Shown here: positions 4,044 through 43,183 of the stretch, piece after piece
Layout of the letters: every line of letters begins with the position of its first letter
How positions within the stretch are numbered: the first letter of the stretch is position 1
From: an uncultured Bacteroidales bacterium
GTDB taxonomy: Bacteria; Bacteroidota; Bacteroidia; Bacteroidales; JACABE01
DNA length: 43,183 bases
Direction: 5' to 3'
Assembly (NCBI GenBank): GCA_903899825.1
Contig: CAIUKU010000224.1
Coordinates: forward strand, 1 to 43,183
Notes under the pieces: model-generated
Database searches by the model: none
Told to the model about the DNA's origin: nothing
Seen by the model: only the letters and a program-made list of their open reading frames with translations
Position numbers and translations under genes: made by a program

Positions 4044-4811
4044 ATGGTAAAAATTTCTGCTGTCATCATCACTTTTAATGAAGAAAAAAATATTGGACGT
4101 TGTATCGGTTCATTACAAGGAATAGCCGATGAAATCATCGTAGTTGATTCTTTTTCGACAGACAAAACTGTTGAAATTTGTAATGTAATGGGTGTTAAAT
4201 TTTTTCAGATAAAATGGGAGGGATATGCTGTTACAAAAAATTATGCTAACAGTCTTGCTGCATTCAATTACATCCTATCAGTTGATGCTGACGAAGCTTT
4301 GTCTGAAGCACTTCAAAAAGAAATCCTTGCTGTTAAAAATACAGAAAATCCTGTCGATGCATATAAGATAAACAGACTTACCAATTATTGCGGAAGCTGG
4401 ATTTATCATTGCGGCTGGTATCCTGATACCAAGCTGCGGTTGTGGAATAAAGAGAAAGGGAAATGGGAAGGAAATATTCATGAAGAGGTAGTAATGGCAA
4501 AGAATGCCAGCATTACTAAGTTGAAAGGCGATTTACTCCATTATTCTTATTATTCAATTCAACAGCATATCAATCAAGCCAATAAATTTACCGATTTAAC
4601 TGCTATGGAAGCGTTTCAAAAAGGTAAGCAAGCCAGTATTTTAAAAATATTTTTCAGTCCTTTGTTAAAATTTATAAGGGATTATGTTTTTAAACTCGGA
4701 TTTTTAGATGGCTATCCCGGTTATTTGGTTTGCAAAATCTCTGCTTTTGCTAGTTTTATGAAATACATAAAATTGAGAGAGTTACAGGGAAATAATAAGG
4801 ATAAAGGTTAA
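4044..4811 (+). CDS. glycosyltransferase family 2, LPS core type (WaaE/KdtX-like)
   Basis: 255 residues. The N-terminal GT-A fold is shown by SAVIITFNEEKNIGRCIGSL, the nucleotide-binding VVDSFSTDKT and the metal-binding DAD at residues 81-83 (LSVDADEAL). The order of motifs and the GNIHEEV segment resemble the WaaE/KdtX group, which adds a sugar to the lipopolysaccharide inner core. The actual sugar cannot be read from sequence. The C-terminus has a hydrophobic stretch that may lie on the inner membrane. The last residues (GNNKDKG) and the stop codon are encoded inside a 7-bp repeat array (4794-4856), so the natural C-terminus may have been altered by the repeat. A GT9 gene follows. Confidence 0.88.
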   Translation: MVKISAVIITFNEEKNIGRCIGSLQGIADEIIVVDSFSTDKTVEICNVMGVKFFQIKWEGYAVTKNYANSLAAFNYILSVDADEALSEALQKEILAVKNTENPVDAYKINRLTNYCGSWIYHCGWYPDTKLRLWNKEKGKWEGNIHEEVVMAKNASITKLKGDLLHYSYYSIQQHINQANKFTDLTAMEAFQKGKQASILKIFFSPLLKFIRDYVFKLGFLDGYPGYLVCKISAFASFMKYIKLRELQGNNKDKG

Positions 4812-4856
4812 AGGGTAAAGGTTAAAGGAAAAAGTAAAAAGTAAAAATGGTAAAGG
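4794..4856 (+). repeat. 7-bp tandem array overlapping the GT2 stop codon
   Basis: Nine consecutive 7-bp units without an indel: AATAAGG, ATAAAGG, TTAAAGG, GTAAAGG, TTAAAGG, AAAAAGT, AAAAAGT, AAAAATG, GTAAAGG. The TAA at 4809-4811 that ends the GT2 gene is part of the third unit. The unit is purine-rich on the coding strand. Confidence 0.85.
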
Positions 4857-4917
4857 AGAAATTATCATTTATTAATCTCTTGTATAAACATTATAATATT
4901 TAGTCATTCAGCAATAT

Positions 4918-14479: not shown

Positions 14480-14496
14480 TTAATAGCTTAGTTTTT

Positions 14497-14527
14497 AAAG
14501 TTAAAAGTTTATAAAGTTCATAAAGTT
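14497..14527 (+). repeat. AAAGTT short-period array
   Basis: AAAGTT occurs at 14497, 14504, 14513 and 14522, that is with spacings of 7, 9 and 9 bp, starting 17 bp after the rplI stop. Confidence 0.65.
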
Positions 14528-14583
14528 ACGTTTTGCAATATTTTTTAAAAACAGAATTTAATAATTTTGTGAATATATTTAAT

Positions 14584-14615
14584 AAAAAACCCGGTTATAT
14601 TGACCGGGTTTTTTT
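14584..14615 (+). terminator. intrinsic terminator after rpsF-rpsR-rplI
   Basis: A perfect 12-bp stem, AAAAAACCCGGT (14584-14595) with ACCGGGTTTTTT (14603-14614), loop of 7, and a T-run. The A-run on the left makes it able to work in both directions. Confidence 0.9.
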
Positions 14616-14749
14616 ATTTTTGTACGGTACTAAGAAATACCGGGCTAAGCTAATTGAGAAATTTTATGATACAATGCAATGATTTACTACAAAGAATTTA
14701 CGCTATAAAACAAGATAAAGTGAAAAGATGCAGGGAAAACCACTTTACA

Positions 14750-14779
14750 AACTTTTAACTTTCAAACTTTATGAACTTA
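14750..14779 (-). repeat. AAAGTT short-period array, inverted copy
   Basis: On the plus strand AACTTT occurs at 14750, 14757 and 14765, then AACTTA at 14774 (spacings 7, 8 and 9 bp). This is the reverse complement of the array after rplI. It ends 4 bp before the next start codon. Confidence 0.6.
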
Positions 14780-14783
14780 TAAA

Positions 14784-36562: not shown

Positions 36563-36635
36563 GAAGTACTTAAAGTGAGTGCATAAAGTACTTAAAGTAC
36601 TTAAAGTGCCTAAAGTACTTAGCGTACTTAAAAGT
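36563..36635 (+). repeat. 9-bp tandem array after the permease gene
   Basis: The core (A)AAGT recurs at 36563 (GAAGT), 36572, 36585, 36594, 36603, 36612, 36621 (AGCGT) and 36631: five 9-bp steps, one step of 13 caused by a 4-bp insertion, and one of 10. The unit AAGTACTTA contains the palindrome AAGTACTT, so hairpins can form. On the other strand it reads as a Ser-Thr-Leu repeat by chance. Confidence 0.8.
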
Positions 36636-40239: not shown

Positions 40240-43035
40240 ATGTCCGATCAAAAAAAATTATATTTATTAGATGCAATGGCATTGATTTACCGTGCTTTTT
40301 ATGCATTGAATAAAAATCCCAGAATTACTTCCAAAGGACTGAATACCTCTGCTATATTGGGTTTTGCCAATTCTCTGTATGATCTGATCAAAAATGAGAA
40401 ACCTACACATATTGGTGTCGCTTTTGATACCCAGTCCCCTACTGTTCGTCACATTGATTTTAATGCCTACAAAGCCAACAGACAGGAAATGCCTGAAGAT
40501 TTAGTAAAATCAATACCCTATATCATACAATTGATTGAAGCATTTGGCATTCCAGTTTTATTTTCGGAAGGCTATGAGGCAGATGATGTAATCGGTACGC
40601 TGGCAAAAAAAGCGGAAGCCAATGGCTATACAACTTACATGGTCACTCCTGATAAGGATTTCGGTCAACTGGTAAGCGAAAAAACCCTGATCTACAAACC
40701 AGGCAGGATGGGTGAAAAAGCCGAAATTATGGGAATTGCCGAAGTCTGTAAAAAATTTGGCATCAAAAGGACAGCTCAGGTTATTGATATGCTGGGCCTT
40801 TGGGGTGATGCTTCTGATAATATTCCCGGCATTCCCGGAGTAGGTGAAGTTACTGCCCGCAAATTACTGGATGAATTCGACAACATTGATAACATCATTG
40901 CCAATGCCGAACACATCAGTAATCCAAAACTGAGAGAAAAAGTAATCACTTATGCTGATCAGGCAATCGTTTCCCGAAATCTGGCTACCATCATCCTGGA
41001 TGTTCCCATTGAATTTCATGAAGAAAATTTAACACTCGGAAAACCAGATAAAGAGGCCCTTCAAAAACTACTGGATGAACTCGAATTCAGGGCATTTGCC
41101 AAAAGAGTATTTACAGATTTATCTTTGACTGAAAAGATTGCTCATTCAAATTCATCAGCACCTGATCTCTTTTCAATATTAGATGAAAATCCTGTAATTG
41201 ATTTTCAGGAAACCAGCCTGAAAAAAACGATAGAGAATACCCCACATCAGTATTTTTTGATTGATTCGGCTTTACTACAGCAAGAATTGCTTGAGAAACT
41301 CATGCTACAAAAAAGTATTTGTTTTGATACTGAAACTACAGGACTCGATCCCAATAATAGCGAACTGGTGGGTCTTTCGTTTAGTTTTAAAGCCGGTGAA
41401 GCCTATTATATTCCGCTACCGGAAGCTTATGCAGACACCCTGGAAATCCTTAGCCTTTTTAAAATTGTATTTGAAAACGAAAATATTGAAAAAATCGGGC
41501 AAAATATCAAATTTGATATTGCCATCCTTAAATGGTATGATGTAGAAGTCAAAGGAAAAATATTTGACACCATGATTGCTCATTATCTGTTGCAACCCGA
41601 TATGCGGCATAATATGGATGTATTGGCCGAAACCTATTTGAATTATACGCCAGTTTCTATTGAAACCTTGATTGGGAAAAAAGGTAAAAATCAATCCAAT
41701 ATGAGGGATGTTGATATTGAGATTGTTAAGGAATATGCAGCAGAAGATGCCGATGTTACTTTTCAGCTCAAGCAGGTTTTTGAACCCATGTTAAAAGAAT
41801 TCAATGTGGTTTCATTATTCAATGATGTCGAAATTCCTTTAATTCCGGTATTGGCTGCTATGGAAGCCGAAGGTGTTAAAGTAGACATCAATGTCCTGAA
41901 TAAATATTCAGCAGAACTATTCATTGAAATTCAGCAGACTGAAAAAGAGATTTTTGAACTCGCAGGAACCAGTTTTAACATTGCATCACCCAAACAGTTG
42001 GGCGAAATTTTATTTGAGCGTTTGAAAATTGTTGATAACCCTAAACATACCAAAACCAAACAGTACTCTACCGGAGAAGAAGTTTTGCAGAAATTACTCA
42101 ATAAACATCCCATTATTCAAAAAATACTGGATTACCGTTCGTTGGCCAAGTTAAAATCTACTTATGTAGACAGTTTGCCTACCATGTTCAACCCCCGAAC
42201 AGCCAGAATACACACTTCATACAATCAGGCTGTGGCTGCTACCGGAAGGCTGAGTTCTAACAATCCGAATTTACAAAACATTCCCATCAGAACCGAAAAA
42301 GGAAGAGAAATCCGTAAAGCTTTCGTTCCCCGGAATGAGGATTATGTAATCCTTTCTGCAGATTATTCCCAGATAGAATTGCGGATTATTGCCAGTTTGA
42401 GTGAAGATGAGAACATGATAGATGCGTTTATCAATAAGCTCGACATTCATACTGCCACAGCCGCCAATGTTTATGGAGTGAGTCTGGAAGAGGTAACTCA
42501 GGATATGAGACGAAATGCCAAAACCGTTAACTTTGGCATAATATATGGCATTTCTGCTTTTGGACTGTCAGAAAGGCTCAGTATTCCCAGAAAAGAGGCT
42601 GCCCAAATCATAGAGCAATACTTTCTGAAATATCCAAAAATAAAGGAATACATGGACAAAAGCATAGCTTCCGCAAGGTTAAACGGCTTTGTTGAAACCA
42701 TTTTAGGCAGACGCAGATACATTCGTGATATCAGTTCCAGTAACTTCACCCTCAGAGGATTTGCTGAAAGAAATGCCATCAATGCTCCCATTCAGGGCTC
42801 ATCGGCAGATATGATTAAAATAGCAATGATTCGCATTTATAATGAATTAAGCCGGTTAAAACTACAAACAAAAATGATGATGCAGGTTCATGATGAGTTG
42901 GTTTTTGATGTGCATAAAGATGAAATTGAAATTGTGAAACCCATTATTTACAATGAAATGAAAAATGCCATGTTGTTGAAAGTACCTGTTGAAATTGAAA
43001 TGAATACAGGCGAAAACTGGCTGGTGGCGCATTGA
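40240..43035 (+). CDS. polA: DNA polymerase I
   Basis: 931 residues, complete three-domain form. The 5'-nuclease covers about 1-295 (LYLLDAMALIYRAFYAL, GYEADDVIGTLA, PGIPGVGEVTA). The 3'-5' proofreading domain (about 340-520) keeps its acidic residues: Asp363 and Glu365 in CFDTETTGLDP, Asp426 in NIKFDIAIL and Asp503 in YAAEDADVT, so proofreading should work. The polymerase domain has SADYSQIELRIIASLSED (motif A), RRNAKTVNFGIIYGISAFG (motif B, with Phe as in E. coli) and QVHDELVFDV (motif C). It fills gaps and removes primers. Near-consensus TAATTTTA (40212-40219) may be its -7 box. A 7-bp repeat array begins 1 bp after the stop codon. Confidence 0.97.
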   Translation: MSDQKKLYLLDAMALIYRAFYALNKNPRITSKGLNTSAILGFANSLYDLIKNEKPTHIGVAFDTQSPTVRHIDFNAYKANRQEMPEDLVKSIPYIIQLIEAFGIPVLFSEGYEADDVIGTLAKKAEANGYTTYMVTPDKDFGQLVSEKTLIYKPGRMGEKAEIMGIAEVCKKFGIKRTAQVIDMLGLWGDASDNIPGIPGVGEVTARKLLDEFDNIDNIIANAEHISNPKLREKVITYADQAIVSRNLATIILDVPIEFHEENLTLGKPDKEALQKLLDELEFRAFAKRVFTDLSLTEKIAHSNSSAPDLFSILDENPVIDFQETSLKKTIENTPHQYFLIDSALLQQELLEKLMLQKSICFDTETTGLDPNNSELVGLSFSFKAGEAYYIPLPEAYADTLEILSLFKIVFENENIEKIGQNIKFDIAILKWYDVEVKGKIFDTMIAHYLLQPDMRHNMDVLAETYLNYTPVSIETLIGKKGKNQSNMRDVDIEIVKEYAAEDADVTFQLKQVFEPMLKEFNVVSLFNDVEIPLIPVLAAMEAEGVKVDINVLNKYSAELFIEIQQTEKEIFELAGTSFNIASPKQLGEILFERLKIVDNPKHTKTKQYSTGEEVLQKLLNKHPIIQKILDYRSLAKLKSTYVDSLPTMFNPRTARIHTSYNQAVAATGRLSSNNPNLQNIPIRTEKGREIRKAFVPRNEDYVILSADYSQIELRIIASLSEDENMIDAFINKLDIHTATAANVYGVSLEEVTQDMRRNAKTVNFGIIYGISAFGLSERLSIPRKEAAQIIEQYFLKYPKIKEYMDKSIASARLNGFVETILGRRRYIRDISSSNFTLRGFAERNAINAPIQGSSADMIKIAMIRIYNELSRLKLQTKMMMQVHDELVFDVHKDEIEIVKPIIYNEMKNAMLLKVPVEIEMNTGENWLVAH

Positions 43036-43036
43036 G

Positions 43037-43183
43037 TTGGAAGATGGAAGATTGAAGATGGAAGACAGGTGTTGGAAGATGGAAGTCGGAAGTCGGAAGA
43101 CAGAAGTTGGGAGTTGGAAGATGGAAGACAGAAGTTGGAAGATGGAAGACAGAAGACAGAAGTTGGAAGATGGAAGATGGAAG
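43037..43183 (+). repeat. 7-bp tandem array after polA
   Basis: Exactly 21 units of 7 bp with no insertion or deletion, running off the right edge. Variants: ATGGAAG 7 times, TTGGAAG 5, ACAGAAG 4, TCGGAAG 2, and ATTGAAG, ACAGGTG, TTGGGAG once each. Each TTGGAAG is followed by ATGGAAG (5 of 5). The strand is strongly purine-rich. The period is not a multiple of three, so it does not encode a repeat in one frame. Confidence 0.92.

Follow-up and report, generated by a model that had tools for sequence, protein, structure and literature searches.

Tandem arrays of 7-9-nt units at open reading frame edges in Bacteroidota follow a common position and strand rule

Why should an uninterrupted run of heptamers begin one nucleotide after the stop codon of polA in an uncultured Bacteroidales bacterium, and does it belong to something wider? 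The window in which this array stands, meaning the whole stretch of DNA analysed here (43,183 nt), holds four further arrays (Table 1), and a sequence-only reading had taken them together for one genome-wide class tied to gene ends. Such a class was indeed found in the host genome, in the sister species designated G001, in other genera and in Flavobacterium. It is, however, wider and more ordered than that reading had guessed when it proposed a scan for arrays of period 7-9 near stop codons. It did not include the strand rule, the presence of arrays at either edge of intergenic DNA, or the precedent in Rehm et al. 2015 (PMC4692102).

The array after polA and other arrays of the window

The gene upstream of the array was identified as polA by Pfam (DNA_pol_A, E = 2.9e-164). 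Its stop codon is TGA at 43033-43035, the array starts 1 nt downstream, and the 147 bases from 43037 to 43183 divide into 21 in-phase heptamers with zero indels, all as first counted; TRF scored the tract with periods of 7 and 28. Unit positions 4 and 7 are invariably G and positions 5 and 6 nearly always A, and the column counts agree that variation is concentrated in positions 1-3. From the same counts, the ratio of G to C on the sense strand is 59:7, with GG runs and one lone GGG unit (TTGGGAG). The C-terminus of polA is native (...LVAH before the stop) and conserved in relatives; in the two sister species inspected the orthologues stop at the same residue, and no array was found 3' of them. 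Uncultured Bacteroidetes MAGs are the closest named relatives for polA, and they include the sister species G001 that was used for the statistics below.

The ordered succession of variants that had been pointed out was confirmed: all 5 TTGGAAG units have ATGGAAG as the next unit (permutation p = 0.001, for a pair chosen post hoc), and the triplet TTGGAAG-ATGGAAG-ACAGAAG stands in tandem at 43114-43155 (permutation p = 0.027). Multi-unit block duplications were seen, in keeping with the suggested growth by slippage, and because block duplication by slippage yields such an order, it suffices to account for it; a specific code in the unit order was rejected. Other arrays of the GGAAG family have different local orders, for example an alternation of TCGGAAG and ATGGAAG at locus L031.

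It is correct that the array reaches the edge of the window, but this edge is the end of the contig itself (G000:C224, 43,183 bases, contig 224 of a 526-contig draft genome); the array therefore runs into a contig end and has at least 21 units. Another host-genome contig opens in a 150-bp TTTACCC/TTTAACC heptamer array (L149 6-155), a further assembly break at an array, and among 77 sampled contig ends only 2 lay at arrays. An assembly artefact was ruled out on this count and because other species have such arrays well within long contigs, as does a Flavobacterium chromosome that is complete (the L107 genome).

Table 1. Features of the window (positions counted from its first base)
Feature	Position	Strand	Context
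Heptamer array AAGGATA/AAAGGTTA	4797..4861	+	3' end of glycosyltransferase gene (Pfam); ORF stop 4809-4811 inside the array
9-mer array AAAGTTTAT/AAAGTTCAT	14490..14527	+	Roughly 10 nt past the L9 ribosomal protein gene's stop
Intrinsic-terminator-like hairpin with T tail	14584..14614	+	Between two arrays of one intergenic region
9-mer array of the same family as 14490..14527, opposite sense (AAACTTTATGAACTT on +)	14742..14775	-	Few nt before start codon 14784 of SpoU methylase gene
9-mer array AAAGTACTT/AAAGTGCCT	36563..36632	+	From 2-3 nt after the stop of OppC-type permease gene
polA (DNA polymerase I)	40240..43035	+	Pfam hits; array adjoins its stop codon
Heptamer array, 21 units, consensus (A/T)(T/C)GGAAG	43037..43183	+	G-bearing strand is the polA sense strand; cut by contig end

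All four further arrays exist, and three of them are at gene ends as claimed; the one at 14742-14775 instead lies just before a start codon and in the opposite strand sense. The region between the L9 and SpoU methylase genes thus carries complementary members of one 9-mer family (14490-14527 and 14742-14775) around an intrinsic terminator. Two accounts of individual arrays were discarded. A phase-variation SSR, which lies in an ORF or promoter and switches expression by its number of units, does not fit, the polA array being 3' of the stop and members of the class seldom occurring inside ORFs or between divergently oriented genes. A 'stop trap', in which the array itself supplies the stop and is flush with it automatically, holds for the window array at 4797 and for L039 and L283, and fails for the native stop of polA.

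A shared position and strand for many unrelated units

The statistics rest on samples, an unselected 0.35 Mb of the host genome and 1.12 Mb of G001, with simple ORF calls as gene calls, so that start sites are uncertain. The G001 sample contains 89 arrays, mostly of period 7-9 and built from dozens of unit sequences, where shuffled sequences yield almost none. Over all the arrays seen, up to 27 units were counted, with detectors that leave out short arrays. Units of period 7, 8 and 9 in the two samples include AGTTATG, AATTAGG, AGGCATT, GTTATTAA, GATTTGGT, AAAGTTTAT and AGTACTTGG. An (A/G)AAG core, by which the class had been defined, does not delimit it, as many unrelated units obey the same rule: the 5' side of the G-bearing strand is at an ORF edge, and the array runs from there into intergenic DNA. 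The unit is exchangeable, its position and strand much less so. We consider this description, of a class with a strand rule, very probably correct.

The rule was seen most clearly in G001, where an array was called flush when within 6 nt of an ORF edge, and expectations came from placing arrays at random inside their own intergenic regions. On the 5' side of the G strand 30 arrays were flush, against 9.2 expected (p<5e-5), 21 of these edges being stops and 9 starts of opposite-strand genes; on the other side 8 were flush, against 9.8. In tandem regions 20 G-type arrays (the G-bearing, C-poor strand being the mRNA strand) and 8 C-type arrays were near the stop, compared with 3 and 27 farther on (p = 2e-6). 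Stops had 21 of 37 G-type arrays within 6 nt (4.0 expected), and 10 of 36 C-type arrays were placed likewise before starts (5.7 expected, p=0.024). In convergent regions 13 of 14 arrays were on the predicted strand. Scoring by the nearest ORF edge instead of flushness gave a weaker fit, with 42 arrays in tandem regions fitting and 18 not, and all three scorable arrays in divergent regions violating the strand rule. Array density is higher in convergent than in tandem regions. Divergent regions hold very few arrays (4 of 81, p=1e-5), and so do ORFs (3 of 89); the rare cases in predicted ORFs include arrays of period 7 and 9 at L223 6063-6107 and L157 6778-6805. No comparable strand bias was found at 3' ends of G001 free of both arrays and terminators.

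The host GGAAG family behaves in the same way, with 7 of 13 arrays flush on the predicted side and 0 on the other. Those with flanks begin 0, 0, 0, 1, 1 and 1 nt after a stop (the window, L031, L032, L035 and, twice, L036), two more lie at -4 and 10 nt, and GGAAG is always on the coding strand. Three successive GGAAGNN units were matched 63 times on 12 contigs of the host genome, and the reversed control pattern not at all. Across the order, GGAAG arrays occur in 15 genera, and four-unit matches in 15 of 198 genomes, with 204 in one and few or none in most; the genome with 204 (G268), the most of any searched, has C-richer variable dinucleotides. Of 149 genomes from the taxonomic class, 9 contain AGTTATK. 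Arrays are few in G003, another sister species, and abundance therefore changes quickly.

Moreover, units differ at corresponding sites. Among reciprocal-best orthologues of the host genome and G001, 3 gene ends are arrayed in both species, with differing units (chance alone, at 7 and 8 of 73, would give about 0.8; the numbers are small); GGAAGTT faces AGGCATT at one pair of orthologous 3' ends and AAAGTTCAT faces AGAGTACTT at another. In a fourth orthologue pair (window 36560) the unit family is common to both species: the sister species has a few copies of a related unit, GGAGTACTT, in a short array after its OppC-type permease orthologue.

Among 19 GGAAG arrays from other genera of the order, 8 began flush after a stop as predicted, compared with 1 on the opposite side. 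Of 22 placed Flavobacterium arrays 14 were flush, 5 after a stop and 9 at an opposite-strand start, and none of the 22 touched a stop with its wrong side; the loci in both counts were picked by pattern. The polA neighbourhoods of Flavobacterium and Dyadobacter gave 9:0 arrays on the predicted strand at the nearest stop, and at Flavobacterium-type polA loci ATTTTAG stands 2-5 nt after the stop in 28 of 50, in many extending as a heptad array, the Flavobacterium loci being related by descent. Flavobacterium genomes contain up to 168 matches to the ATTTTAG pattern, and the complete chromosome 13. Strong conservation of the Flavobacterium polA array was looked for and not found. In six array-free Flavobacterium loci (L077, L091, L098, L099, L101, L103) a lone ATTTTAGATT unit stands right after the polA stop, as if a seed or remnant. 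The region 3' of polA in Dyadobacter (L064 5893-6039) has a palindrome-like 10-mer array that switches sense midway, being G-type for each of the convergent genes.

What the arrays might do

We slightly favour, as a tentative reading, that the arrays are strand-asymmetric elements that halt untranslated transcription at its entry into an ORF, perhaps through Rho. Transcripts entering from outside, either antisense RNA at the 3' end of a gene or read-through reaching a start, would at the array consist of long, unstructured and nearly G-free RNA, onto which Rho or a similar termination factor may load readily, and ribosomes following the transcript would prevent that loading. Transcripts leaving the ORF would carry the G-bearing strand and would not be caught. 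At polA, the antisense RNA (CTTCCAACTTCC...) would halt convergent or stray transcription before it enters the gene. Many unrelated units could serve, we propose, because slippage easily makes long unstructured tracts.

Several observations are consistent with termination, beginning with the position and strand rule itself, the rarity of arrays in ORFs and between divergent genes and the differing units at orthologous 3' ends. Of the 70 3' regions of G001 that bear arrays, 1 has an intrinsic terminator (hairpin plus T tail), against 81-86 of 431 other regions and an average of 7.0 (range 2-13) in length-matched, equally masked array-free controls, which suggests that arrays in this species stand where intrinsic terminators are missing. 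The antisense strand of the polA array is predicted to be nearly unstructured (-2.6 kcal/mol over 147 nt) and has a C:G ratio of 59:7. A rut site is described as at least 70-80 nt long, unstructured and with C>G (PMC6407284), and the antisense strand agrees with this in length, structure and composition, its rut activity being a prediction. A Rho gene is present in the host genome, and in F. psychrophilum antisense RNAs are for the most part the product of incomplete termination and spurious initiation (PMC9723704). On the other side, YC dinucleotides, the Rho contact, are not enriched over G001 units (66, against 68.7 +- 5.1 from letter composition). Arrays and terminators coexist in the window (14480-14783, with an array, a terminator and a complementary array before the next start), and they are not exclusive at Flavobacterium polA (11/27 vs 12/23). 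Moreover, an array just before a start would fall within the leader of the gene that follows, a place in which a tract resembling a rut site is expected to do harm. The lack of a strand bias at G001 3' ends free of arrays and terminators, and the modest conservation of the Flavobacterium polA array, also count against termination.

Nearly as likely as termination is neutral or selfish spread, in which arrays grow by slippage and are copied between intergenic sites, and selection merely purges those that harm promoters, starts or ORFs, so that the observed positions and strands are what is left. The patchy, lineage-specific abundance of GGAAG matches, the array-free polA of two sister species and the multi-unit block duplications all agree with it, as do the Flavobacterium polA arrays, which have shrunk to a single unit in several species and whose conservation (0.60) does not exceed that of synonymous sites (0.65). 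A damage filter, however, leaves unexplained the one-sided flushness in G001, the 13:1 strand choice at convergent stops and the replacement of units at the same gene end. A directional insertion of DNA, perhaps by a single-strand transposition process that targets short words like stop codons, could seed arrays at ORF edges with a polarity fixed relative to the edge regardless of gene direction, as observed, and would fit the recurrence of identical units at many loci and in distant genera; the array borders inspected show no common flank, and we think this improbable.

A function in the RNA, with C-poor tracts after stops and G-poor tracts before starts acting on translation or mRNA stability through RRM proteins or pairing of 3' and 5' regions, seems unlikely to us, though less so than insertion. 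It would account for arrays flush with translation boundaries, starts included (the C-type arrays of G001, and Flavobacterium), and for the two complementary 9-mer arrays around one terminator in the window. In Bacteroides, moreover, an RRM protein with a global role binds single-stranded RNA by preference (PMC11697453). Exchangeable units at orthologous sites are nevertheless awkward for sequence-specific binding or pairing, and G001 starts that face divergent genes are without arrays. G-quadruplex formation, the proposal made for GGGNATC heptamers in Xanthomonas and Nostoc, is highly improbable here even though those repeats share the positional and strand rule: most units have a single G or a GG pair (ATTTTAG, AGTTATG, AAAGTTTAT) and still obey it. 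The rule cannot depend on a quadruplex, because single-G units, incapable of forming one, follow it too, and a quadruplex origin was rejected on this ground.

Returning to termination, its broadest form is a speculative proposal that we hold to be rather doubtful as a whole: that position, strand and composition, not sequence, may define an element class whose tandem arrays, made of any low-structure 7-9-mer, mark ORF edges, block the entry of untranslated transcription into ORFs and partly replace intrinsic terminators. Such a class would be common throughout Bacteroidota, and the heptamers of Xanthomonas and Nostoc that are taken for quadruplex elements would belong to it.

Relation to known elements and repeats

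The arrays resemble rut sites as long, unstructured, G-poor RNA, here on the strand that enters the ORF; they differ in being tandem repeats without YC enrichment, with a low absolute C content in many units, and their termination activity is putative. The STRR heptanucleotide repeats of filamentous cyanobacteria, known from literature that both Rehm and MacGregor cite, are likewise described as dispersed degenerate heptamer arrays.

We searched the literature outside subscription journals for a named Bacteroidota class of gene-end repeats and found MacGregor 2015 (PMC4679880) alone, which sets aside the idea that no equivalent had been described in this phylum. There, TAACTGA heptamer arrays are reported from Beggiatoaceae, cyanobacteria and five Bacteroidetes, with contigs ending inside arrays, and the units are read as translational regulator sites before starts; in F. 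litoralis, 12 of 14 sets are forward before starts and one 7-unit set lies right after a stop in reverse sense. Heptamer arrays in Bacteroidetes and contig ends within them are common to both cases, but a single fixed unit is involved there, compared with a class of units here ((A/T)(T/C)GGAAG at polA) and one rule for both edges.

The closest parallel is that of Rehm et al. 2015 (PMC4692102), whose review of the field notes an excess of heptamers in bacterial genomes, reported since 2007 without a function. The GGGNATC heptamers that they described in Xanthomonas and Nostoc are intergenic and scarce in ORFs and between divergent genes. Their G strand is mostly less than 50 bp after stops (sense) or before starts (antisense), the ORF on its 5' side being the nearer one whatever its direction. 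Many of these repeats are transcribed, and a preference for four units marks them; quadruplex formation was stressed, and a function was not found. The arrays described here share with them the heptamer build, the G-strand rule at stops and starts and the scarcity in ORFs and divergent regions. They differ in their many units and periods of 7-9, in placement within a few nt, in belonging to a different phylum and in lacking G-tracts, most units having no quadruplex capacity (taken as four or more runs of three G), as well as in the scarcity of intrinsic terminators in one species and the turnover of units at orthologous sites. It is these differences that our analysis adds to the known rule. 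As the rule is kept by non-quadruplex and mutually replacing units, its explanation must lie in strand, position and composition, and this long-standing heptamer oddity becomes testable by strand-specific RNA-seq of Flavobacterium or Bacteroides.
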